A program made the translations under genes and the position numbers. The notes below the pieces were generated by a model. It had not been told where the DNA came from. It saw only the letters and a list, made by a program, of their open reading frames with translations, and did no database searches. A stretch of 21,585 nt of DNA from Thiotrichaceae bacterium (GTDB lineage Bacteria; Pseudomonadota; Gammaproteobacteria; Thiotrichales; Thiotrichaceae), in the NCBI GenBank assembly GCA_024762625.1, contig JANTHA010000005.1:1-21585 (forward strand), written 5' to 3'. Shown here piece by piece: positions 5,357-21,217 of this stretch; positions within the stretch are counted from its first letter, which is position 1; each line of letters starts with the position of its first letter.

Positions 5357-5971
5357 ATGTCATCACAAACAAATCAAAAACAAGCTTCTTTATTTACAGA
5401 GACACTACTTCAATCCAGACGTAACTTTTTAAGAAAAGCGGGCGCTTCAACATTCTCAGCGACTACCGTTGCTTTATTGGCCGGGTGCTCGACCAAACTC
5501 GCAATGGCGGATTCTGGCTCCAGCGCCAATGCGAGCGTGAAACAGGATATCCGTATTTTAAACACTGCGATTGGCGCAGAACACGAAGCTGTTGCAGCCT
5601 ATCAACTGGGCGCGGAGAGCGGTCTGCTTGTCCCGGATGTGCTAAAAGTGGCGGTAAAGTTTCAGGGACATCACAAAGAACATATTGATGCATTATCAGC
5701 TGCTGTTACAAAACTGGGAGGTCACGCCGCTGCAGCAAAACCAAAATACAACTTCCCTGTTAGCAAATTGAAAAAGCAGAAAGATGTGCTTGAGTTTGCG
5801 GCGGGTCTGGAACGAGGCGCCGTAAGCGCTTATGTTGGCGCAATACCAGTATTTGATAATCGTGATTTGTCAGCCGCTGCAGCAAGTATTCTTGCTGACG
5901 AAGCAATGCACTGGGCAGTTTTACGAAATGCTTTAGGTCTTGATCCTGTACCAGAGGCTTTTTATTCATAA
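5357..5971 (+). CDS. Tat-exported ferritin-like domain protein
   Basis: 204 residues. The N-terminus has a twin-arginine signal (SRRNFLRK, R21-R22) followed by a hydrophobic segment ending LLAGC (C44), which also fits a lipoprotein box, so the mature protein may be lipid-anchored in the periplasm. The rest is a four-helix ferritin-like fold with likely di-metal ligands spread over the helices: E75/H76 in AIGAEHEAVAAY, H105/H106/E108/H109 in GHHKEHIDAL, E152 in AAGLERGAVSAY, and E182/H185 in ADEAMHW. This is the pattern of the DUF4439/ferritin_2-type families. Known relatives store or oxidise iron or protect against oxidants; the substrate here is unknown. AAAGGA lies 8 bases before the ATG. 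It shares its direction with the cytochrome c and sigma-factor genes that follow and probably belongs to one stress or iron regulon with them. Confidence 0.88.
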   Translation: MSSQTNQKQASLFTETLLQSRRNFLRKAGASTFSATTVALLAGCSTKLAMADSGSSANASVKQDIRILNTAIGAEHEAVAAYQLGAESGLLVPDVLKVAVKFQGHHKEHIDALSAAVTKLGGHAAAAKPKYNFPVSKLKKQKDVLEFAAGLERGAVSAYVGAIPVFDNRDLSAAAASILADEAMHWAVLRNALGLDPVPEAFYS

Positions 5972-5998
5972 ATACATTTGCAGTTTGGAATAAAAGCT

Positions 5999-6045
5999 AA
6001 AGGATGGCGGATAAAGAGGAATGCGCTCGCAGTCCGCCACCCTTT
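5999..6045. repeat. 13-bp imperfect hairpin between ferritin-like and cytochrome genes
   Basis: AAAGGATGGCGGA (5999-6011) pairs with TCCGCCACCCTTT (6033-6045) with one mismatch. The loop contains a second small stem TGCG-CT-CGCA (6022-6031). No T run follows, so it is a poor intrinsic terminator. It may set the ratio of upstream to downstream transcript or protect an RNA end. Confidence 0.6.
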
Positions 6046-6086
6046 AAAAACTTATTAGCAGGCTATCCAGCCATACAAACGAAGAG

Positions 6087-6530
6087 ATGATGATGACCCC
6101 TTCAAAACAAAATGTACTGATAAAACTACGCCATCTAAAGCCATCACCGACATCCATGGTACTATCGGCCACTCTCCTTTCTTGCCTTGTTTTGTTAACT
6201 AATACAGCGCATGCAGGCGACCCACTGACGGGCAAGGATATTTATAATCGTTGCATCGGCTGTCATTCTTTTGCTGACAACCGAACCGGGCCCAGGCATT
6301 GTAATTTATTCGGACGTAAAGCAGGAACAGTGCAAGGCTTTGACTATTCTGACGCAATGCGTAATAGCAAAATTGTGTGGAATGAGACAACACTTGACGC
6401 TTTCCTTAAAGCGCCATTACAAAATATTCCAGGGACAATTATGGGCTATGCAGGGGTCAAGAATGACAGGGAGCGTGCTGACTTGATTGCTTATTTGAAA
6501 CAGGCATCAGGATCATCTGAATGCAAATGA
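6087..6530 (+). CDS. Exported monoheme class I cytochrome c
   Basis: 147 residues with a long signal peptide: hydrophobic segment at about 24-38 and a likely cut after AHA (residue 43). The mature protein is about 104 residues. Heme attachment is C56-I-G-C59-H60. The sixth iron ligand is probably M119 in GTIMGYAG. The GP..NLFGRKAG element (68-80) and the closing DLIAYLK helix are typical of cytochrome c2/c550-like electron carriers. An extra Cys occurs at 72 and another near the C-terminus. Three ATG codons stand in tandem at 6087-6095; GAAGAG directly before the first is better spaced for the second or third. It presumably passes electrons in the periplasm, perhaps to or from the ferritin-like protein encoded next to it. 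Confidence 0.93.
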   Translation: MMMTPSKQNVLIKLRHLKPSPTSMVLSATLLSCLVLLTNTAHAGDPLTGKDIYNRCIGCHSFADNRTGPRHCNLFGRKAGTVQGFDYSDAMRNSKIVWNETTLDAFLKAPLQNIPGTIMGYAGVKNDRERADLIAYLKQASGSSECK

Positions 6531-6534
6531 ACAT

Positions 6535-6558
6535 GCGACTTGATTAGCGACTTGATTA
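6535..6558 (+). repeat. Tandem 12-bp direct repeat upstream of the sigma gene
   Basis: GCGACTTGATTA occurs twice without a gap (6535-6546 and 6547-6558), starting 4 bases after the cytochrome stop codon and ending 25 bases before the sigma-factor ATG. The first 10 bases recur at 7370-7379, before the phosphofructokinase gene. The repeat contains TTGAT, which is both a -35-like element and an FNR-type half-site. Confidence 0.9.
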
Positions 6559-6583
6559 ATAACAACAACAGGAATATTTATTA

Positions 6584-7306
6584 ATGTTAGAAATAACAAA
6601 ACCTCAAACCATGCATGTCAGGAATGTTGTTGCTCCTTCTGTCGAAGTATCTGATGAAGACATCATAAAACGGATAAAAAAAGGAGATATCAATGCCTAT
6701 GGCAGTATTATGCGGCGCTATAATCAACGCATATACCGTATTGCCCGAAGTATAGTAAGCGATGATGCTGCTGCCATGGATATTGTTCAAGAAGCCCATA
6801 TCAAGGCGTATACCAAGCTTGAAAATTTTCAAGAATCAGGCAGTTTTATAGCCTGGTTAGTCAGCATTACCCGCAATGAAGCCTTGATGTATTTGCGTAA
6901 GCATAAAAGAGAGGTGTCTATGCCAGATGATGAAATGGAGATCGTTAGGCAAGCAAAGCAAGATAGTCCGCCAATGAACAATAAAGGCCTTCCTGATCGA
7001 TTTCTGGAGAATAAACAATTACAAAAACTGATTGACCAGAATATTGATGCCTTACCAGAGAACTTTCGAACCGTTTTTATTTTACGCGCCATTGAGCAGT
7101 TTAGTGTTAAAGAAACAGCAAAAATACTGGAAATCAATCAGATAACCGTTAAAACCCGTTATTTCAGGGCCAGACGTTTACTGCGAGGACAGATTCAGAC
7201 CTACCTCGATGCGGCGGGCATGAAAATCTATGAGTTCGGTGGTGATCATTGCGATATAATTGTGAAGAATGTGATGAATTATATACACAAACTGGCGGAA
7301 CGATAA
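6584..7306 (+). CDS. RNA polymerase sigma factor, ECF type (sigma-70 family)
   Basis: 240 residues. Region sigma-2 spans about 34-108 (DAAAMDIVQEAHIKAYTKL, then FIAWLVSITRNEALMYLRK). A charged linker follows, then sigma-4 at about 165-205 (LPENFRTVFILRAIEQFSVK, KETAKILEINQITVKTRYFR). There is no sigma-3. About 30 residues extend past sigma-4, ending in FGGDHCDIIVKNVMNYI with C223. Such a tail is longer than in minimal ECF factors. AGGAA lies 9 bases before the ATG. No anti-sigma gene is adjacent: the next gene is a phosphofructokinase, and the genes upstream encode the cytochrome and ferritin-like protein. Control may therefore act through the leader repeats, the C-terminal tail or the exported neighbours. 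It probably directs transcription of its own cluster; that is inference. Confidence 0.92.
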   Translation: MLEITKPQTMHVRNVVAPSVEVSDEDIIKRIKKGDINAYGSIMRRYNQRIYRIARSIVSDDAAAMDIVQEAHIKAYTKLENFQESGSFIAWLVSITRNEALMYLRKHKREVSMPDDEMEIVRQAKQDSPPMNNKGLPDRFLENKQLQKLIDQNIDALPENFRTVFILRAIEQFSVKETAKILEINQITVKTRYFRARRLLRGQIQTYLDAAGMKIYEFGGDHCDIIVKNVMNYIHKLAER

Positions 7307-11762: not shown

Positions 11763-13355
11763 TCAGGCAACTTGGCGTAGTCTTTCGTTGTCATGTCGTT
11801 CGCGACGCCTTTTGCCCGGTATTTCTCGCAATAACAGTGAGGGTTCCGTCATACCCGCAGGCGGATTGATGCCCATCAGTTCCAGCAAAGTTGGCGCAAC
11901 ATTTGCAAGCCCGCTATCGGAAGACAATTGCCAGTTATGTTCGTCAACAATCAGACAAGGAACCGGATAGATGGTGTGCTGGGTATGCGGATCGCCTGTA
12001 AACGGATCGACCATTTCTTCGCAGTTTCCGTGATCCGCCGTCAGCAAAACAGAATAGCCCGCGTTTTCAGCCGCTTCCATTACCCGCGTTGCTTCACTGT
12101 CCAGCGTTTCAACGGCTTCTATCACCGCGTCCTGTTTTGCGGTATGTCCGACCATGTCGCCGTTGGCGAAATTTACTACGATAAATGCATATTTCCCTTT
12201 GCTGATGGCGCCCACGACGGTATCGGCAACTTCCCTGGCGCTCATGGATGGTTTTTTATCATAGGTGGCGACATTGGGTGATGGAATCAAAGTTTGCTCT
12301 TCACCCGGGTAGGGCTCGGTGTGACCACCATTGAAAAAATAGGTGACATGCGCATATTTTTCGGTTTCCGCACAATGAAACTGGGCCAGTCCCAGCGAGC
12401 TGATCACATGCGCCAGCGTGGTCGCGGGTTGCTCAGGCTCAAAAGCATAGGGTAGCGGCAGATTGCGATCGTACGGCATTAAACAGGTAACCGAGGCCAA
12501 AGGCGTGTCGCCGCGGTCAAAACCACTAAAGCCAGGATCGCCCAGCGCCGCGACAATCTGTCTTGGCCGGTCCTTGCGAAAATTAAAACAGATTACGGGA
12601 TCATCTTTTCCGATCGCGCTAAATACGGGGAGCAATATCGGCTGGATAAACTCATCGGTATCGCCCGCCGAATAAGCGCTCAGAATGGCCGATCTGGCGC
12701 TTTTCGAGTGATGACCTTTGCCAAGCGTCAGTGCGCGCCATGCAAGCTCGGTGCGCTCCCAGTTGTTATCGCGATCCATTGCGTAATAGCGACCCATAAT
12801 ACTGGCGATAGCGCCGCCGCTTTCATGTAACAAAGGTTCGATTTTATTCAGGTAATCCAGGGCGGATTGCGGCGCGGCGTCTCTGCCATCCAGTATCATG
12901 TGCAGCAAAGGCTTTACCTGTTGCATTTTGCACAGCTTGATCAAGGCGATCAGGTGATCCAGATGACTATGTACGCCCCCATCCGAAACCAGACCCAGCA
13001 AGTGAAGCGGTTTGTTGTGCTTTCTCGCCAATCCTATCGAATCAAGCAAGGCGGCGTTAAAGAAAAATTCTTCACTGGCGATAGCGTCATTGATGCGAAC
13101 CAGATCCTGGCGAATCACCGAGCCTGCACCGAGGGTCAGATGGCCGACTTCTGAATTTCCCATCTGACCGTCTGGCAGACCCACAGATGCGCCCGAGGCT
13201 CTTAGCGCAGTGTGTGGGAAACGACTGAAATAATCATCAAGATTTGGCGTATCGGCTTCCAGTACGCCATTGTAGCGCTTACTGGGATTGATGCCGACGC
13301 CATCCAGTATGACAAGGACGACAGGACGGCGCGGCGCCCCTGAAATATTGAGCAT
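11763..13355 (-). CDS. gpmI: 2,3-bisphosphoglycerate-independent phosphoglycerate mutase
   Basis: Interconverts 3- and 2-phosphoglycerate with a two-metal (usually Mn) phosphatase/phosphotransferase mechanism; alkaline phosphatase superfamily, cytoplasmic monomer. 530 residues, near the usual 510-515 plus a basic C-terminal tail (GKRRRERHDNERL). Metal and catalytic motifs: VILDGVG with D18; MGNSEVGH with the phosphorylated S67; DGRDAAP; NFANGDMVGHT; LLTADHGNCEEM; and the closing His of TGDPHTQHT. AGAGGAT lies about 11 bases before the ATG. It stands in the same direction as ppdK but with a 381-bp gap, so it is probably a separate transcript. The enzyme works between the steps of the PFK and PPDK genes beside it. 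Confidence 0.98.
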   Translation of the reverse strand: MLNISGAPRRPVVLVILDGVGINPSKRYNGVLEADTPNLDDYFSRFPHTALRASGASVGLPDGQMGNSEVGHLTLGAGSVIRQDLVRINDAIASEEFFFNAALLDSIGLARKHNKPLHLLGLVSDGGVHSHLDHLIALIKLCKMQQVKPLLHMILDGRDAAPQSALDYLNKIEPLLHESGGAIASIMGRYYAMDRDNNWERTELAWRALTLGKGHHSKSARSAILSAYSAGDTDEFIQPILLPVFSAIGKDDPVICFNFRKDRPRQIVAALGDPGFSGFDRGDTPLASVTCLMPYDRNLPLPYAFEPEQPATTLAHVISSLGLAQFHCAETEKYAHVTYFFNGGHTEPYPGEEQTLIPSPNVATYDKKPSMSAREVADTVVGAISKGKYAFIVVNFANGDMVGHTAKQDAVIEAVETLDSEATRVMEAAENAGYSVLLTADHGNCEEMVDPFTGDPHTQHTIYPVPCLIVDEHNWQLSSDSGLANVAPTLLELMGINPPAGMTEPSLLLREIPGKRRRERHDNERLRQVA

Positions 13356-13739: not shown

Positions 13740-14249
13740 TTAGTCTGAAACAGCCAGCAAGATTCCCCTTAGCAGGTCGGTGGGCGTAGGCGGACAACCA
13801 GGAATACTGACGTCCACATCGAGCACATTCTGAACGGCGCCGCATGAGGCGTATGACACGCCAAATTCTCCGCCGTTGCAGGCGCATTCACCAGCGGCAA
13901 TAATGATTTTGGGTTTTGGCGTTGATTCAACGGCGCGCAACAGTGCGCTTTGCATATGGCGGCTGACGACGCCCGTGACTAATAAGGCATCGGCATGGCG
14001 CGGTGAAGCGACCATATGCACGCCAAAGCGGGCCAGGTCGTAAAACGGGTTGGCGAGTGCGTTAACTTCGAGTTCACAGCCGTTGCAGGAGCCGCTATCG
14101 ACTGAGCGTATCGCCAGACTGCCATCGAAACGCTTGTCCAGTGCTGATTTTACCTCAAAGCCTAGCGCTTCGAATTCATCGTCAGAGAGCGGCGCGATCT
14201 CTTCACTGAGCGTTCCTGTTCTGAAAATGGTGTTTACTATTCTTAACAT
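13740..14249 (-). CDS. NuoB/HyfI-like small subunit of a hydrogenase-related complex
   Basis: 169 residues, soluble, peripheral to the membrane. It is the counterpart of the group 4 [NiFe]-hydrogenase small subunit and complex I NuoB, which holds the cluster nearest the catalytic or quinone site. All four [4Fe-4S] ligands are present: C55 and C58 (GSCNGCELE, the hydrogenase-type CxxC and not the adjacent Cys pair of NuoB), C122 (GECACNGG) and C152 (IPGCPPTP). It is shorter than E. coli HycG/HyfI (about 250 residues), lacking their C-terminal extension. It is the last gene of the operon, 52 bases after the large-subunit gene, the only real gap in the set; the ribosome site is weak. Cluster retention points to an electron-transfer role even though the partner subunit has no nickel ligands. 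Confidence 0.92.
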   Translation of the reverse strand: MLRIVNTIFRTGTLSEEIAPLSDDEFEALGFEVKSALDKRFDGSLAIRSVDSGSCNGCELEVNALANPFYDLARFGVHMVASPRHADALLVTGVVSRHMQSALLRAVESTPKPKIIIAAGECACNGGEFGVSYASCGAVQNVLDVDVSIPGCPPTPTDLLRGILLAVSD

Positions 14250-14301
14250 ATTGTTTTTACTGCTACATTTTTTCTATTGCTTCTAATTTAATGTCAGAGC
14301 A

Positions 14302-15999
14302 TTACAAATCGACGCCAGAATACGATCCATTGACTGACTTGTTGCATACCGGGAAGTCAGGAACGATATTATTCTTTACAATCTGTTGCAGACAGGGCCA
14401 GTTAAACCAGCTGGGGTCGCGGGGATAAAATCGCGCTATTTTTCCCTCATGATCGAAACGGACATAGGTGACAATCTCACCGCGCCAGCCTTCCAGGATC
14501 CCTAGCCCATGTGTATTTACGGGCGCTTCAAATGCCATGCTGATTGGACCTTCAGGTAAGTTGCGTAACAATTTGCGTTGAAATTGTAATGATGCAACGA
14601 CTTCCTGAACACGGATTTTAAGCCGTGAAGCCACGTCGCCCTGCTCCAGTAACGGGCAATTTAGCGGATTATCCTGATAAGGCGGATACGGTTTGTGTAA
14701 GCGAACATCGTCATCCATGCCGCTGGCGCGAGCAACATATCCCAGTGCGCCAAAGCGGCGCGCCGTCTGTTCACTCAGGTAACCAGTTGTGACCAGTCTA
14801 TCCATCAGTGAGGCATTATCTTCAAGTATGTTAGCCAGTTGCGAAACATGCTCGATCAAAGCGGAAATTTCGCTGTTTAACAGTGTTGCGTTTTCTTCGC
14901 TAATGTCATGAACAACCCCACCAGGAATGACGTTATCCATCATGAAACGGTGTTTGAATAATTGCTGGCTGCGCCGCTGCCATAATTCACGTAAGCGCCC
15001 GAACTGGATGTGGGCAAACGCGAAGCCGACATCATTGCAAATTGCGCCAATATCGCCAAGATGATTTGCGACCCGTTCACGTTCACACAACAGGCCGCGT
15101 AAGGCGCTGGCGCGCTCGGGTATTTCAATTTCCGCCGCCGACTCCATTGCCTGGCAGGCGGCCCAACCATGAGCGACTGTGCTATCGCCGGATACTCTTC
15201 CCGCAAGCCGCGCCAAAGCAGCTGGGTCGCGGCCAACGGCAAGTTTTTCAATCCCCTTGTGTACATAGGCAAGATGCTGCTCAAGCTGAATGATGTCTTC
15301 ACCTGCTGCACTAAAGCGAAAATGTCCCGGTTCGATCACGCCTGCATGAATCGGACCAACCGGAATTTCATAAACCGAAATACCATCAATCCGCTCAAAC
15401 GGGTATTCGCCATCGGCGGGGGTTCGATGTCGCGGATGTCCCTCAAGCGGGAAACCGTGGCGCAAGGGATACTCATCTTCTTTCCAGGCCTGATGGCGCG
15501 TCCAGCGACGTGAATCGATGCTTTTATCCAGCTTGTTGAAGCAGATGCCAAACATGTCGCTTGTGTGGCGCTCACAGCGAGATGCGCCAGGATAGAAGGC
15601 AGAATGGGATGCTATTTCTGGTAATGAGTCATCCTGTGTGTTTTCAAGCTGTGTTTCGACCAGTACATAGCGCCCCCTGATCACAAACAGGACAAACAGT
15701 GAAAATTGATCAATAACGACCTCACCGGAATGATCAAGTTGATGATCCGCCCAGCCAGCCGCCCAGCGAGCGTTAAGCGCATGTGCTTCTTTAGCGACAA
15801 TTTCCCAGCTGTTTGCGGCTACCTTCCAGTGAATACAAGCAAGCTTGTCAGAATCAGGCTGTTCGGTAATGCGCCCCGAGCCAATCTGGTTTTTGAGGGC
15901 GTCAATCCAGTTATCAGACGCATCGTTCTGTGTAACGACATTCGTTGCTGCACTGTTTGTATGATCGGTTATTGGGGCCTTGTCCATGTTGTTACTCAT
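14302..15999 (-). CDS. HyfG-like large subunit lacking all four nickel-ligand cysteines
   Basis: 565 residues from the ATG at 15999, eight bases after the hyfF-like stop; a longer frame opens at 16047 but would overlap hyfF by 41 bases and has no ribosome site. The N-terminal third is NuoC-like (ERHTSDMFGICF, then DEYPLRHGFPLEGHPRHR); the rest is NuoD/hydrogenase large-subunit-like, the fusion seen in HycE and HyfG. The L1 motif RxCGxCxxxH is here RVSGDSTVAH (268-277), with Cys replaced by S270 and S273. The C-terminal L2 CxxC is NGSYSGVDL (557-565), with S559 and G562. No [NiFe] centre can form, and there is no cleavable tail for a maturation protease. It resembles the Ehr-type subunits between group 4 hydrogenases and complex I. 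The substrate is unknown; a quinone-like site is possible. Confidence 0.93.
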   Translation of the reverse strand: MSNNMDKAPITDHTNSAATNVVTQNDASDNWIDALKNQIGSGRITEQPDSDKLACIHWKVAANSWEIVAKEAHALNARWAAGWADHQLDHSGEVVIDQFSLFVLFVIRGRYVLVETQLENTQDDSLPEIASHSAFYPGASRCERHTSDMFGICFNKLDKSIDSRRWTRHQAWKEDEYPLRHGFPLEGHPRHRTPADGEYPFERIDGISVYEIPVGPIHAGVIEPGHFRFSAAGEDIIQLEQHLAYVHKGIEKLAVGRDPAALARLAGRVSGDSTVAHGWAACQAMESAAEIEIPERASALRGLLCERERVANHLGDIGAICNDVGFAFAHIQFGRLRELWQRRSQQLFKHRFMMDNVIPGGVVHDISEENATLLNSEISALIEHVSQLANILEDNASLMDRLVTTGYLSEQTARRFGALGYVARASGMDDDVRLHKPYPPYQDNPLNCPLLEQGDVASRLKIRVQEVVASLQFQRKLLRNLPEGPISMAFEAPVNTHGLGILEGWRGEIVTYVRFDHEGKIARFYPRDPSWFNWPCLQQIVKNNIVPDFPVCNKSVNGSYSGVDL

Positions 16000-16006
16000 T
16001 GCCAAC

Positions 16007-17482
16007 TTACAATACGCTCGTGCCTGAAATAAACCGGGTGGCTTCATTGAGCCAGTTAGCGAGCGTATCAGGTATATAAAGGCCGAGCCACAAAACCAGA
16101 ATCAAATGCAGTATGACCGGCCACATATTCGCCTTGACTGCTTGCTGTCCGTCGGGGACTTCACCATAAACCATCGGATGTAAAAAGCGGAACAGGCCGG
16201 CAAAAGCGATCGCCAGACCAATTAACAGGATAGGCGCAAGCCAGGGCCATGATTTCATGGTTGCAATCAATAATAGAAACTCACTGGTAAAAATACCAAA
16301 CGGAGGAAAACCCGCAATTGCAGCAACGCCAAGTAACAAGGGCCAACCAACCGATGGCTGGGTGCGAATCAAACCACGGATTTTTTCAATATTCTGAGTG
16401 CCGGAAATATGTGTAGCGTGTCCGACCGTGACAAATATCGCTGATTTAGTCAGTGAATGCACCAGCATGTGAAAAAGGCCCGCAAAGGTTGCAAGCGGCC
16501 CGCCAATGCCGAATGCAAATGTCATCAGGCCCATGTGCTCTATCGACGAATAACTGAACATGCGTTTGATATCACGCTGACGGTGCAGGAAAAAAGCGGC
16601 GACCACAAACGACAACAATCCAAAACTCATCAGCATATAACCGGCCAGATGTGGGTGATTGGAGCTGACTAGGGCATTATCGACGATCATTTTCATGCGG
16701 ATCACTGCATACAGTGCGACATTCAGCAATAAGCCGGAAAGAACCGCCGACATCGGTGTCGGCCCTTCCGAATGCGCATCGGGCAGCCAGTTATGCAACG
16801 GAACCAGGCCAACTTTGGTGCCATAGCCAACCAGCAGAAAAACAAATGCAATTGAAATAATAACCGGATGCATCTGTTTGGAAGATTCAAAAAGAACGCT
16901 CCAGGTAAGGCCCTGTTCAGCATCAAAACCGGGGATATGCTGGGCTGCAAAATAAAGCAATACAGTGCCAAACAGCGCCATTGCTATGCCGGTGCCGCAC
17001 AGCATGAAATACTTCCAGGCGGCTTCGATGGCTTCCGGGGTGCGATACAGACTGACCAGCAAAACGGTCGCCAGGGTAGCGCCTTCGACTGAAATCCATA
17101 AAACGCCCAGATTATTGGTAGTCAATGCAGCCAGCATGGTGAACTGGAATAACTGGTACATCGAATGATACAGGCGCATCCCCTTTTTATTGGTCCAGCC
17201 CATGTGGCACACATGCTCCATATAAGGGCGTGAAAAGATAGACGTTGTCATGGCGACGAATGTGGTCAGTACAACCAGATAAACGTTAAACTCATCAATC
17301 TGGAACCAGTTATTTTTAAATGCGCCATGCTCCATCACCTTGAGCATCAATAACGCAGAAACCACAAAATTGGCGCTTGATACAGTGACGTTGAGCCAGC
17401 TTGAGAGGCGCAGGTTTGGCATGAACGCCATGACAATGGCGGACAGCAATGGAATCAGAAGCGTTGCGTGAATATAATCCAT
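16007..17482 (-). CDS. HyfF-like antiporter-type membrane subunit
   Basis: 491 residues from the ATG at 17482, which has AGGGA about 9 bases upstream; the frame extends to a TTG at 17491 that is too near that site. It belongs to the Mrp antiporter/NuoL-M-N family: about 14 hydrophobic helices, with the channel glutamate E133 in WISVEGATLA and lysine K223 in GYGTKVGLVPLHNWLPDAHS, plus the usual second-half HRQRDIKRMFSYSSIEHMG and LVHSLTKSAIFV. These charged residues form the ion path in relatives, so the subunit is probably competent in proton or sodium transfer. The gene overlaps the hyfE-like frame closely and is followed by the large-subunit gene. It is the second antiporter-like protein of the operon. 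Confidence 0.94.
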   Translation of the reverse strand: MDYIHATLLIPLLSAIVMAFMPNLRLSSWLNVTVSSANFVVSALLMLKVMEHGAFKNNWFQIDEFNVYLVVLTTFVAMTTSIFSRPYMEHVCHMGWTNKKGMRLYHSMYQLFQFTMLAALTTNNLGVLWISVEGATLATVLLVSLYRTPEAIEAAWKYFMLCGTGIAMALFGTVLLYFAAQHIPGFDAEQGLTWSVLFESSKQMHPVIISIAFVFLLVGYGTKVGLVPLHNWLPDAHSEGPTPMSAVLSGLLLNVALYAVIRMKMIVDNALVSSNHPHLAGYMLMSFGLLSFVVAAFFLHRQRDIKRMFSYSSIEHMGLMTFAFGIGGPLATFAGLFHMLVHSLTKSAIFVTVGHATHISGTQNIEKIRGLIRTQPSVGWPLLLGVAAIAGFPPFGIFTSEFLLLIATMKSWPWLAPILLIGLAIAFAGLFRFLHPMVYGEVPDGQQAVKANMWPVILHLILVLWLGLYIPDTLANWLNEATRFISGTSVL

Positions 17483-17487
17483 GCTTG

Positions 17488-18168
17488 TCAATCCCTGGTT
17501 TCCGAAAGTCGCGTCATATCATCGACATCCATACTGCCTACCCGACCATGAATATCAAAAAAGAAAACGCCAAACAGAACCGCCGCGACCAGGACGTCAA
17601 ACGCGATACCTAGTTCAACCACCAGCGGCATTCCCTTTGTGGTTGCTACAGCCGCAAAGAACAAGCCATTCTCGATCGACATGAAGCTGACCACCTGGCC
17701 AATCGCATGATGCCGGATAATCATGCCGAGCAGACCAATCAGCACCACAGATAATGTAATGGCGATGATATTGCGTGATTCGCCCACATCACCGATTAGT
17801 TCGATCGGCAAAATGATGTAATAGCTAAAAACAACCAGCATTGACGCTATCATCAAGCCAGTTACTGGCGGATGAGCCGACACATAACGGCGCAGTCCGA
17901 GGCTATTGACGTGGTAGTGCAAGAGCCAGGGAATGAACATTGCTTTAATGACAAATGTAATCAATGCCGATAGATAAAGATGGCCGTGATGGCCTGACCA
18001 CGCAACAATGACTGTTACTGCGGCTACCAGCGCGCCTTGCCAGGCAAAGGTATGAATGACGCTGACCAGCCTGAGTTGAACCAGCAACATGAACGATGTC
18101 AGTAGAACCAGCGCCGCCAGCAGGTTAATCAATTGCCCGCTGAGAGGCAGAGTCGACAGGTAATCCAT
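17488..18168 (-). CDS. HyfE-like (NuoK-related) membrane subunit
   Basis: 226 residues with about seven hydrophobic helices and little loop. The C-terminal half carries the NuoK-like segments VSFMSIENGLFFAA and PLVVELGIAFDVLVAAVLFG, with two membrane glutamates that in complex I help carry protons. It ends in an acidic, charged tail (MDVDDMTRLSETRD). The start codon overlaps the stop of the hyfC-like gene by one base (TAATG), indicating translational coupling. The function is inferred from the family: a membrane-arm subunit linking the NuoH-like subunit to the antiporter-like ones. Confidence 0.92.
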   Translation of the reverse strand: MDYLSTLPLSGQLINLLAALVLLTSFMLLVQLRLVSVIHTFAWQGALVAAVTVIVAWSGHHGHLYLSALITFVIKAMFIPWLLHYHVNSLGLRRYVSAHPPVTGLMIASMLVVFSYYIILPIELIGDVGESRNIIAITLSVVLIGLLGMIIRHHAIGQVVSFMSIENGLFFAAVATTKGMPLVVELGIAFDVLVAAVLFGVFFFDIHGRVGSMDVDDMTRLSETRD

Positions 18169-19181
18169 TAGACATGAACCTCCAGAACCAAATGCGAAAT
18201 CATGCCGAGCAGGGCAAGGAAAAAAGCCAGATTCAGATATTGTGGCGCGCGGAAGACACGCATTTTAGCCAGAACCGTTTCTGATAGCGCCAGAATCATC
18301 GCCAGTACAAACAGTTTTAAAATAATGGCCAGCAACGCCATCAGAATCGCCGGGACGGTTAGCTCGGTTGCAATCCCCCAGGGGAAGAAAATATTGCTAA
18401 TCAGAACGCCATACAACATTAGCTTGAGTGATGCCGACCATTCCATCAAAGCAAGATGGCGACCGCTGTATTCGAGCAACATCGCCTCATGAATCATGGT
18501 CAGTTCAAGGTGTGTTGAAGGATTATCAATCGGAATGCGCCCGGTTTCAGCCACCGCAACCATCAGCAGCGCAATCAATGCAAACAGGAAAGAAGGCCGA
18601 ATCACAAAGCCATTTTGCAGTGAAAGCTCAATCGCCGCAGCCAGATTGGTGGTGTGAACCGTCATCGCCAAAATAAAAATGGCCATCAAGGCGGCGGGTT
18701 CGGCCATTGATGAAATCATCGTTTCTCGCGAACTGCCCATGCCGCCAAACGCTGTGCCCGCATCCAGTCCGGCCAGCACCAGAAAAAAACGACCCAGTGC
18801 GAGAAAACCGATCAGCACAATGATGTCTGCAATGGCTGCCGTTGGCAGCATCGTGGCAACCAGTGGAATAACAGCCACAGCCAGTAAAGTCGATGAAAAG
18901 ACAATATAAGGCGCAATGCGGAATATAATGCTGGTCGTCTCAGCAACGATGGCTTCTTTGCCAAACAATTTGCGTAAGTCGCGGTAGGGCTGCAGCACCG
19001 GCGCACCCCGACGATTCTGCAAAAAAGCCTTGCATTTGTGTATCCAGCCACTCAAAAGCGGCGACAACAGCACAAATAAAAACGCCTGCAGAATCGCCAT
19101 CAACCAGGCAAACGGATTTAACAGATCACTGCCGGAAACCGAATCTAAAAGAATGTCGCTGCTTGCAATTGCGGCTATCAT
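18168..19181 (-). CDS. HyfC/HycD-like (NuoH-related) membrane subunit
   Basis: 337 residues from the ATG at 19181, which overlaps the hyfB-like stop as ATGA; an ATG at 19196 in the same frame has no ribosome site. Eight or so membrane helices. Conserved NuoH-family loops are present: QNRRGAPVLQPYRDLRKLFG after the first helices, and AVAETGRIPIDNPSTHLELT with IHEAMLLEYSG. In complex I and group 4 hydrogenases these acidic loops couple the peripheral redox part to the ion-pumping arm. The N-terminal stretch before residue 20 is mildly hydrophobic. It is the anchor for the soluble HyfG- and HyfI-like subunits. Confidence 0.94.
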   Translation of the reverse strand: MIAAIASSDILLDSVSGSDLLNPFAWLMAILQAFLFVLLSPLLSGWIHKCKAFLQNRRGAPVLQPYRDLRKLFGKEAIVAETTSIIFRIAPYIVFSSTLLAVAVIPLVATMLPTAAIADIIVLIGFLALGRFFLVLAGLDAGTAFGGMGSSRETMISSMAEPAALMAIFILAMTVHTTNLAAAIELSLQNGFVIRPSFLFALIALLMVAVAETGRIPIDNPSTHLELTMIHEAMLLEYSGRHLALMEWSASLKLMLYGVLISNIFFPWGIATELTVPAILMALLAIILKLFVLAMILALSETVLAKMRVFRAPQYLNLAFFLALLGMISHLVLEVHV

Positions 19182-21217
19182 AAAGACACCAACCATAATA
19201 ACAGAACAATAGTTGCCAGCGACCAGGCGAGATAGGTTCTGATATTGCCGGACTGAATCAGTGTGACATGGCGGGCAATAAACAGGACCGAGCGCCCAAT
19301 CGGTTGATAAAACATCTTCCAGCTGCGATCTTCAACCGTCAGGAAGTGGCGGCTTGTATCCTCATGGCGCTCCACTTTCTCTTCAATAGTGAAAAAGCCT
19401 TTGAAGACGCGACGCAGCGGCATCGAAAAGGCCATGCCGGTGTATTGCATGCGCGCATTGGGCGTTGAAAAACCGCAATCCCAGACTTCTGCTCGGCGTA
19501 CTTTACGGTTCTTGCGCACATGCAGAATAATACTGCCCAGTAACCACACCAGGCCGATGCCGAGCAGAACCAGTGGAGGACTATAACTGGCTGGAACAAT
19601 CGCGCTATCCGTTTCCCTGATCGGTATTAGCCAGAGCCAGCTCCTCTCATTCAGGCTACCAAGACCAGCGCCAATCAGCTGGTCGGGGATATGGTTCAAC
19701 AGCGCAAGTACAGGAGCTACCAGAATACCCAGCGCAAAACAGAAAACGGCTAGATAAGCGAGCGCAAACAACATGCCCCCAGAGGCTTCATGCGCATTCC
19801 TGACGTGCTGGGTGCGGGGCAGACCCAGAAAGCTGATGCCATAAAGCCGCACAAATGCGCCCACCGCCAGCGCCCCTGTCATCGCCAGGACTGCCGCAGT
19901 CGAAGGTATCATGAAGCGCAATATCCCCTGCTCGATTGTCCAGTTATGCAATGCAGTCTGGAAAATGAGCCATTCGGAAACAAAACCGTTAAACGGAGGC
20001 AATGATGCAATGCTGATAACACCGATCAGAAAGAACAGACCTGTCCAGGGCATTCGCTTAAGCAAGCCGCCCATATGTTCAATATCACGTTCATGCGTAC
20101 CGTGAATAACCGAACCTGCGCCCAGGAACAGCAGGCTCTTGAAAACGGCATGGTTGAGCGAGTGATACAGCATTGCCAGAAAACCCATAATGCCCAGTTG
20201 ATGATGTCCGGTTCCGTAAAAAACCAGCGACAGGCCAAATCCGAGCATGATAATACCGATATTCTCGACTGAACTGTAAGCAAGAATGCGCTTGATATCA
20301 CGTTGCATCAACGCATACAAAACACCATACAGCGCTGTGCCGCTGCCAATGATCAAAACCACAACGCCCCATTGCCACTGAATTTGATCAACACCGATCA
20401 GACCCAGCGTAAAACGGACCATGCCATACACAGCCACTTTAAGCATCACGCCAGACATCAGCGCCGAAATATGGGATGGCGCAACCGGATGAGCTTCTGG
20501 CAACCAGACATGCAGCGGCACAATGCCTGCCTTCATGCCAAAACCAATAAAGGCAAAGGCAAATGCGGTGGACGCCCAGAAAGGCGAAAGAGAAACATGT
20601 TGCATCGCATCAAACGTAAAACTGTCAGCGAAACCGGCGAGCACGCCATATCCAAGTAAAATGGACAAACCGCCAATGTGGGCCATCAGCAGATAAATAA
20701 AGCCAGCGCGCCGGTTAGCCGGATTGCGGTGCTGAAAAGTAACCAGGAAATAGCTGGAAAGCGACATGACTTCCCAGGCAATCATGAAGGTATACGCGTC
20801 ATTTGCCAGAACAACCATCATCATGCCAGCGACAAACAGGCCAGTAAAAAAGCCAAGTACCGGCAGCTGCTCGCCGCTATGCCTGAATTCCTTGCAATAC
20901 GAAGGGCCGTAGGTCGCGACCGGAATCAGCACCAGTCCGATGATAAAAAGGAAAAACCCGCTTAAAGCATCCAGTTTGATATGCCAGTGTAACCATGGCA
21001 GTCCGAACGGAATCACCAGCTCGGTGGTTTCCTGCGTCACAAGCTGCGTAATTCCGGAATACGCGGCAAACAGGCCACTGATTCCGAGCAGTGTAAAAGA
21101 CAGGCGATTCACCAGATCCGGCCAACGCCTGATATTGAATTGTGATAACAGTGACGCCAACGCTGATAACAGCGCCAGCCCAACACCAATCAGAAATGTG
21201 TCGAAAACAGGTGGCAT
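19178..21217 (-). CDS. HyfB-like antiporter-type membrane subunit, first gene of the operon
   Basis: 679 residues from the ATG at 21217 (a TTG directly before it, at 21220, is also in frame). It belongs to the NuoL/MrpA-like proton-translocating family, with about 16 helices. E149 in IAWEVMSLSSYFLV and K229 in GFGMKAGIVPLHVWLPEAHP are the conserved pair of the half-channel; MQRDIKRILAYSSVENIGI and YHSLNHAVFKSLLFLGAG follow. The C-terminal extension with WDCGFSTPNARMQYTGMAFS is characteristic of HyfB/HycC and not of NuoL. The length matches E. coli HyfB (672). It is preceded by a good sigma70 promoter and an inverted repeat, and its stop overlaps the next start. Confidence 0.95.
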   Translation of the reverse strand: MPPVFDTFLIGVGLALLSALASLLSQFNIRRWPDLVNRLSFTLLGISGLFAAYSGITQLVTQETTELVIPFGLPWLHWHIKLDALSGFFLFIIGLVLIPVATYGPSYCKEFRHSGEQLPVLGFFTGLFVAGMMMVVLANDAYTFMIAWEVMSLSSYFLVTFQHRNPANRRAGFIYLLMAHIGGLSILLGYGVLAGFADSFTFDAMQHVSLSPFWASTAFAFAFIGFGMKAGIVPLHVWLPEAHPVAPSHISALMSGVMLKVAVYGMVRFTLGLIGVDQIQWQWGVVVLIIGSGTALYGVLYALMQRDIKRILAYSSVENIGIIMLGFGLSLVFYGTGHHQLGIMGFLAMLYHSLNHAVFKSLLFLGAGSVIHGTHERDIEHMGGLLKRMPWTGLFFLIGVISIASLPPFNGFVSEWLIFQTALHNWTIEQGILRFMIPSTAAVLAMTGALAVGAFVRLYGISFLGLPRTQHVRNAHEASGGMLFALAYLAVFCFALGILVAPVLALLNHIPDQLIGAGLGSLNERSWLWLIPIRETDSAIVPASYSPPLVLLGIGLVWLLGSIILHVRKNRKVRRAEVWDCGFSTPNARMQYTGMAFSMPLRRVFKGFFTIEEKVERHEDTSRHFLTVEDRSWKMFYQPIGRSVLFIARHVTLIQSGNIRTYLAWSLATIVLLLWLVSL

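Follow-up and report, generated by a model that had tools for sequence, protein, structure and literature searches.

A hyfBCEFGI operon of a Thiotrichaceae bacterium encodes a predicted Ehr-type complex with a conserved replacement of the nickel site

The hyfBCEFGI operon

The DNA considered here, referred to as the window, is a stretch of 21,585 nucleotides (nt) from a Thiotrichaceae bacterium (assembly GCA_024762625.1, contig JANTHA010000005.1, positions 1 to 21,585). On its minus strand, at positions 13740-21217, lies a compact operon of six genes in the order hyfB-C-E-F-G-I, on which the list of open reading frames (ORFs), Pfam and NCBIfam agree. Comparison of the encoded proteins with their relatives showed that the [NiFe] site of the large subunit HyfG has been exchanged for a conserved set of Ser, Thr, Asn and Asp residues, and that one predicted [4Fe-4S] site of the N2 type and the charged residues of the putative pump arm have been retained. 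The operon is a further member of the known family of energy-converting hydrogenase-related (Ehr) complexes, or hyfBCEFGI non-hydrogenases, rather than a new machine.

The genes (Table 1) are closely packed: hyfB and hyfC overlap by 19 nt, hyfC and hyfE by 1 nt and hyfE and hyfF by 4 nt, and gaps of 7 and 52 nt separate hyfF from hyfG and hyfG from hyfI, respectively. The ATG at 15999 is the likely start of hyfG, the longer ORF of which begins at 16047; HyfG residue numbers are counted here from codon 16023, so that 8 has to be subtracted for the ATG start. A search of PDB sequences up to E 1 gave no match to the hyfE product. Among the ORFs of the window there is none for a ferredoxin-like subunit or for HyfD. 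The glycolytic gene gpmI is located on one side of the operon and the contig end close to the other. A composition shift that would mark an island was rejected, as GC contents of 0.48-0.51 in the operon are no departure from the 0.40-0.54 seen elsewhere in the window. Promoter and terminator scans of the window did no better than those of shuffled sequence.

Table 1 Features of the hyfBCEFGI operon (window positions)
Feature	Position	Strand	Description	Basis
hyfB	19178..21217	-	NuoL/antiporter-like subunit; alternative TTG start 3 nt upstream	NF005086 (hydrogenase 4 subunit B) above cut-off; closest PDB sequence 7z0s_C (HycC)
hyfC	18168..19196	-	NuoH/HycD-like membrane subunit with Glu-rich coupling stretch	Closest PDB sequences 7z0s_D (HycD), then 6cfw_M
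hyfE	17488..18168	-	Small membrane subunit	NF008556 (hydrogenase 4 membrane subunit), below cut-off
hyfF	16007..17491	-	Second antiporter-like subunit	NF005045 (hydrogenase 4 subunit F) above cut-off; closest PDB sequence 6cfw_H
hyfG	14302..15999	-	Fused NuoC+NuoD/HycE-like large subunit; Ni ligands replaced by Ser, Ser, Ser, Gly	
RVSGDSTVAH	15169..15198	-	Former RxCGxCxxxH Ni motif	Alignment with E. coli HycE
NGSYSGVDL and stop	14302..14331	-	Former DPCxxC motif, without C-terminal extension	Alignment with HycE
hyfI	13740..14249	-	NuoB/HycG-like small subunit; one predicted [4Fe-4S] site	

The replaced nickel site of HyfG

In the alignment of HyfG with E. coli HycE (7z0s_E), RVSGDSTVAH is found in place of RVCGICGFAH, and NGSYSGVDL in place of DPCYSCTD. 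Conservation of these replacements was counted in a set of loci that includes the window and was gathered before L158; E. coli-type loci, L001 and L152-L155 were left out. In the former N-terminal motif of 141 HyfG sequences, D280 is invariant, S278 is present in 139 and Ser or Thr occupies position 281 in 130. The former C-terminal motif carries N565 in 140 sequences, Ser at 567 in 136 and Gly at 570 in 138, and none of the 141 has a C-terminal tail past this motif. Conservation is also high at R514 (141/141), E231 (140/141) and R276 (139/141). A tally of the motifs over 273 rows, in which hydrogenases and NuoD were included, was in line with these counts. Neither sequencing error nor decay confined to this locus explains the missing Cys codons, as the identical replacements are nearly fixed throughout the family.

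HyfG was also compared with NuoD of complex I. His38, Tyr87 and Asp139 of NuoD, which we take to be residues of the quinone site, have as counterparts in HyfG Ile230 (140/141), Gly279 (139/141) and Asp331 (140/141), and Asn320 is common to both proteins. In a HyfG tree made from same-phylum rows only, 24 rows form a supported clade that includes the window and consists mostly of records named Gammaproteobacteria or their families; L158, NuoD, L153 and L145 are on long branches, with unsure placement. Two further kinds of large subunit were seen. A same-genus genome (G399; L158/L172) encodes a HyfG-like protein with the motifs RISGNESIAY and CDLSYAGNDL next to a gene for a HyfI-like protein, and this is a divergent Ehr type, the second in the genus. 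Three same-phylum genomes of family f51 (L152, L154, L155) carry another large subunit without the nickel cysteines (RINAVDSIAH, RINALDSVAH), the gene for which is part of another conserved cluster.

Small subunit, pump arm and missing subunits

C55, C58 and C122 of HyfI are present in all of 116 sequences and C152 in 115, and they align with the cluster cysteines of HycG/HyfI. In HyfB, E150, K230, K261 and K361 are kept in 96-97 of 98 sequences. HyfF has E136 in 137/137 sequences and K226 and K349 in 136/137. The acidic residues E158, E166, E217, D224, E231, E237, E242 and E306 of HyfC are invariant in 106 sequences, as are K75, E166 and E185 of HyfE in 108. Because the replacement in HyfG is conserved and the cluster and pump arm are invariant, these sequence patterns suggest that the enzyme is functional and of another kind, not a hydrogenase in decay. 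A search of 141 loci at E 1e-6 gave no gene like those for HyfA, HyfH or HycB/F.

An earlier, sequence-only reading of the window had proposed the gene order, the loss of all four nickel ligands (to Ser, Ser, Ser and Gly), the retention of four HyfI cysteines and of the channel Glu and Lys in both antiporter-like subunits, and the absence of HyfA, HyfH/NuoI and HyfD. All of this was borne out by the annotations, the alignments and the gene content given above, and the loss of the ligands proved to be family-wide. Its Ehr-like label agrees with the lost nickel motifs, the N2-type Cys set and the membrane subunits, and its picture of a putatively intact pump arm with one Fe-S cluster and no electron-input subunit agrees with the conserved residues and the gene content.

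Distribution of the family

Relatives are encoded at 461 loci in GTDB genomes, far beyond chance, and 7934 of the best 8000 protein-database candidates match at E 0.001, among which there may be more distant kin. In a wide-flank set of 112 loci, composed of the 80 closest by sequence and 32 diverse same-phylum loci, the six genes are complete and contiguous in 81, in an order without HyfA, HyfH and HyfD. The remaining 31 are without at least one of the genes in simple gene calls, probably owing to short contigs or missed short genes. A close HyfG (E < 1e-60) was found in 62 of 397 other same-phylum genomes sampled. Ten of the 397 carry a match of 32-34 % identity, and all four of these that were fetched have the Cys motifs.

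Co-occurrence was examined using hand-compiled sets of genomes with Ehr (62), RuBisCO of form I or II (96, weak form IV-like matches left out) and HypD (93), together with a list of 76 genomes of families f40 and f60. Form I/II RuBisCO is encoded by 38 of the 62 genomes with Ehr vs 58 of the 335 without (odds ratio 7.6), and outside families f40 and f60 by 13/29 vs 24/292 (odds ratio 9.1), relatedness being controlled in neither comparison. As 40 of the 62 Ehr genomes gave no HypD match, [NiFe] maturation seems not to be needed for the complex.

Neighbouring genes

SulP permease genes are present in 41 of the 80 closest loci vs 1 of the 32 diverse loci. In 35 loci the SulP gene adjoins the operon on the same strand, and in 15 of these it is at most 100 nt away. 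Two SulP types are involved, which are just 21-26 % identical to each other: one is located upstream of the operon, mostly in methanotroph records, and the other was found in five records (Thiohalobacter, Chromatiales, Muproteobacteria, Acidiferrobacterales), up- or downstream and once on the opposite strand. Chance adjacency would be rare, an estimated few per thousand per locus, because nine genomes of SulP loci hold 3-10 SulP matches each, some of them partial pieces, in 2.2-5.1 Mb. No NCBIfam cut-off is reached by the methanotroph type, and the other type is accepted by the model for sulfate permease; the idea of SulP as a proven bicarbonate carrier is unsupported by NCBIfam, and the substrate cannot be told from the sequence. 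Tandem SulP pairs directly precede hyfB in L020, L022, L030, L035-L037, L048, L054, L061, L074, L077 and L083, mostly methanotroph records. In two Methylovulum loci (L028, L083), hyfI is followed by DabA (PF10070) and then by a NuoL/HyfD-like (DabB-like) gene, and these are the only HyfD-like matches in the 141 loci. DabA is not part of the window operon, which has no SulP neighbour either. No description of a linkage of hyfBCEFGI with SulP was found in searches of open-licence PMC texts.

Published accounts of other hyf clusters add further neighbours. The hyf genes of At. ferrooxidans are AFE2149-54 and its form II RuBisCO is AFE2155 (PMC2621215), locus tags that imply that the two adjoin. 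One A. caldus hyf cluster adjoins a β-carbonic anhydrase gene, and the other co-occurs with carbon-fixation genes (PMC3826726). The hyf neighbourhoods of vent Epsilonproteobacteria are described as completely unrelated (PMC3958643), and CO dehydrogenase is reported as a neighbour of the hyf operon in Ca. Nitrospira nitrosa (PMC5596200).

The other 31 of the 32 diverse loci have no SulP, and the genes next door are mostly those of helix-turn-helix (HTH) regulators or unrelated ones. In a survey of flanks, 150 of 231 candidate proteins were analyzed from 58 loci chosen as not named for methanotrophs; SulP and proteins of fewer than 70 or more than 900 amino acids (aa) were left out, and the top 25 of 193 and 628 families were judged, so that rare partners may be missed. 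A conserved redox partner beside the operon was not found in this survey, HTH regulators being the commonest Pfam families. A small HTH-type protein of about 80-105 aa is encoded directly before hyfB in 12 loci, of Chromatiaceae and several further genomes (e.g., L010:3238-3492, L127:14998-15285).

Host genome and origin of the operon

The host genome is a metagenome-assembled genome (MAG) of 85.8 % completeness, which encodes a separate complex I (a nuo cluster with NuoD) and RuBisCO (form II by eye). The possibility that hyfA or hyfH genes elsewhere make a normal hydrogenase had been raised with the sequence-only reading. The best match to E. coli HyfH in the host assembly reads by eye as NuoI, beside nuoH, nuoJ, nuoK and nuoL; the same search also gave two weak matches (E 4e-4) in longer ORFs, and no host search was made for HyfA. 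HypD was not found in this incomplete assembly by a search that gave matches in 4 of 14 control genomes.

At a threshold of 40 % identity, HyfG has no match in the 11 other genomes of the genus, of which G399 encodes a 35 % relative, or in 24 other genomes of the family. Of the 11 same-genus genomes, 7 encode a full-length ClpB that shares 85-89 % identity with the one of the window, 3 have partial copies with 83-93 % identity, and G398 is without a close copy. Because of this similarity the contig most likely belongs to the genus, and mis-binning was rejected. Horizontal gain or patchy loss of the operon is likely, a recent gain being the simplest reading, and chimerism of the contig at the operon end is possible.

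Side observations were made on other genes of the window. The gpmI gene that adjoins the operon (11763-13355, minus strand) is just 53-61 % identical to copies in 10 same-genus genomes, and a second copy in the host assembly (C138, L186), with different neighbours, is 89 % identical. At 5357-7306 (plus strand), a Ferritin_2-domain protein, a cytochrome c (c550-like) and a sigma factor of the extracytoplasmic-function type are encoded in a row.

Relation to known systems

Ehr complexes were described by Marreiros et al. (2013, as cited in PMC10284858 and PMC6349859). Loss of the nickel motifs has been reported for Sulfobacillus, where both are missing (PMC4378227), for comammox Nitrospira (PMC10284858) and for ammonia-oxidising archaea (PMC10432482), and the At. 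ferrooxidans hyfBCEFGI cluster was classed as a non-hydrogenase (PMC7735108). The function of Ehr is called unknown in PMC4378227 (2014) and PMC10284858 (2023). Shared features of these complexes are a group 4-type large subunit without nickel motifs, a small subunit with one N2-type Cys set, and NuoH-, NuoL/antiporter- and HyfE-like membrane subunits. In the type described here the genes keep the Hyf order and the large subunit is a NuoC-NuoD-like fusion; the Geobacter and Sulfobacillus complexes are likened to it by description, not by sequence. By gene names and number, the same six genes make up the clusters of At. ferrooxidans (PMC7735108), Nitrospira (PMC5596200), Cupriavidus (PMC2864759) and vent Epsilonproteobacteria (PMC3958643), some of which were read in these papers as hydrogenase-4 or formate hydrogenlyase; this likeness, too, is one of names rather than sequences.

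The E. coli formate hydrogenlyase/hydrogenase 4 (HycE, HyfG; 7z0s) is the closest PDB sequence for HyfB, HyfC, HyfG and HyfI, and HyfG has the same fold. HyfG is just 28-29 % identical to its E. coli counterparts, however, HyfI has about 170 aa instead of 252, and the nickel ligands, the cleavable C-terminal extension and the HyfA, HyfH and HyfD partners are all missing, so that none of the features of a group 4a [NiFe] hydrogenase (Hyc/Hyf) that were looked for (ligands, extension, HyfA/HyfH in the operon) was found. With complex I (NuoB, NuoCD, NuoH, NuoL/M/N) the operon shares the homologous core, the N2-type cysteines and the Asp139 and Asn320 positions; it differs in the replaced His38 and Tyr87 positions and in being without NuoE, NuoF, NuoG and NuoI. 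The DAB inorganic-carbon complex (PMC13144422) uses the same NuoL-like proton-path family, and its genes adjoin the operon in the two Methylovulum loci, whereas in the window DabA, the carbonic-anhydrase-like subunit, lies outside the operon.

Proposed function and alternatives

The product of the operon is most likely an ion pump coupled to a redox reaction, with a single N2-type cluster and a pocket put to a new use, for which we infer the electron partner and the substrate. With moderate confidence, hyfBCEFGI may be taken as an Ehr complex that belongs to the complex I superfamily, pumps ions as a membrane-bound oxidoreductase, handles no H2, works with a soluble carrier on HyfI and a substrate in the re-purposed pocket, and serves carbon assimilation. 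A soluble electron carrier would dock directly on HyfI, and electrons would pass, via the HyfI cluster, between this carrier and a small substrate in the former nickel pocket, either a quinone held differently from that in complex I or a soluble compound. This transfer would drive, or be driven by, ion flow through HyfB, HyfF, HyfE and HyfC, and such a coupling would explain what selection appears to keep. No electron partner is encoded nearby; it has to be either soluble or a further complex. For autotrophs and methylotrophs, a role in carbon assimilation is proposed: the complex would draw on the proton gradient to provide low-potential reductant, or it would energise the uptake of inorganic carbon. 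The carbon linkage suggests these same two roles, reductant supply for CO2 fixation or the energising of carbon uptake.

The sequence-only reading had offered a quinone, a soluble donor or conformational coupling, a choice that is now narrowed a little: the complex I-type quinone ligands are absent and the Asp139 equivalent is present. The electron partner, which it had left open, has no recurrent candidate in the scanned neighbourhoods, where possible inorganic-carbon genes recur in some lineages. Several observations weigh against the oxidoreductase proposed here. A complex I-like quinone pose is unlikely because Ile230 and Gly279 stand at the His38 and Tyr87 positions, and a quinone would be a possible substrate, given Asp331 and Asn320, outside the known pose. 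No electron-carrier gene was among the 25 commonest families (Pfam, NCBIfam) of the 150 flanking proteins. The pocket signature is not universal, as in L158 (same genus, 35 % identical) Asp280-Ser281 is replaced by Asn-Glu, with Ser278, Ser567 and Gly570 still in place. HypD is somewhat commoner in genomes with Ehr (22/62 vs 71/335; odds ratio 2.0, p 0.02), and 24 of the 62 are without form I/II RuBisCO, the association with which is uncorrected for relatedness.

Cyanobacterial NDH-1MS offers an inorganic-carbon comparison. Like NDH-1MS or DAB, the Ehr complex could couple the hydration of CO2 or the uptake of bicarbonate to a gradient of protons or sodium ions, whether or not electrons take part. 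The recurrent same-strand SulP genes, the involvement of two dissimilar SulP types with little room for chance, the DabA and DabB-like genes and the published At. ferrooxidans (PMC2621215) and A. caldus (PMC3826726) neighbourhoods would all fit, but the SulP substrate is unsettled, the window and 31 of the 32 diverse loci have no such neighbour, and unrelated neighbourhoods or CO dehydrogenase are reported elsewhere (PMC3958643, PMC5596200); this alternative is considered unlikely. It also appears improbable that the complex is an unrecognised machine for acquiring inorganic carbon, powered by the ion gradient with the N2 cluster as its gate. In this reading the pocket (Arg514, Asp280, Glu231, Asn565 and the Ser/Thr for Cys) would be a site for CO2 or bicarbonate or for its reductive use, and unrelated autotrophs and methylotrophs would have recruited the complex along with SulP, DabAB, carbonic anhydrase or RuBisCO.

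In the E. coli complex, FdhF is wired by HycB and HycF. A soluble formate dehydrogenase docking on HyfI, with ions pumped while electrons are passed on and no H2 made, is a rather unlikely alternative: the loci have no counterpart of HycB/HycF and no formate dehydrogenase family was among the 25 commonest of the 150 neighbours, no search for one having been made in the host. A formate link has been proposed for At. ferrooxidans (PMC2621215), Nitrospira resembling nitrite-oxidising bacteria (PMC5596200) and vent Epsilonproteobacteria (PMC3958643); subunits of the Geobacter Ehr (GSU0739-45) were more abundant on formate, with proteomic support (PMC7894505), and a formate dehydrogenase-Ehr complex was proposed in Margulisbacteria and Saganbacteria (PMC6349859). 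A mechanism like that of the Pyrococcus MBS complex, with sulfane sulfur or another soluble compound reduced directly by the N2-type cluster in the vacated nickel pocket, is also doubtful. Chains of 6u8y, presumably this complex, are among the PDB relatives of HyfG, HyfI, HyfC, HyfF and HyfB, and several host records bear names of sulfur oxidisers; many other hosts are methanotrophs by name, however, 6u8y_L scores far below HycE (66 vs 193 bits), and no sulfur-metabolism family was among the commonest neighbours. A non-redox cation antiporter like Mrp, with HyfG and HyfI as just a structural cap, would account for the lack of an encoded electron input and for the resemblance of the pump arm to Mrp and Mbh antiporter subunits, but a mere cap would not need the near-invariant HyfI cysteines and HyfG pocket residues, which makes this quite improbable.

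Significance

The near-fixed replacement signature and the repeated linkage with SulP or DabA are, as far as open-literature searches show, new in combination. Ehr complexes are common, occurring in 62 of the 397 same-phylum genomes, and databases label their proteins as hydrogenase or complex I subunits; several papers infer H2 metabolism or formate hydrogenlyase from them, by which metabolic reconstructions are misled. The signature motif makes a cleaner annotation possible, and the repeated linkage to possible inorganic-carbon genes provides a testable lead on the reaction of the complex.

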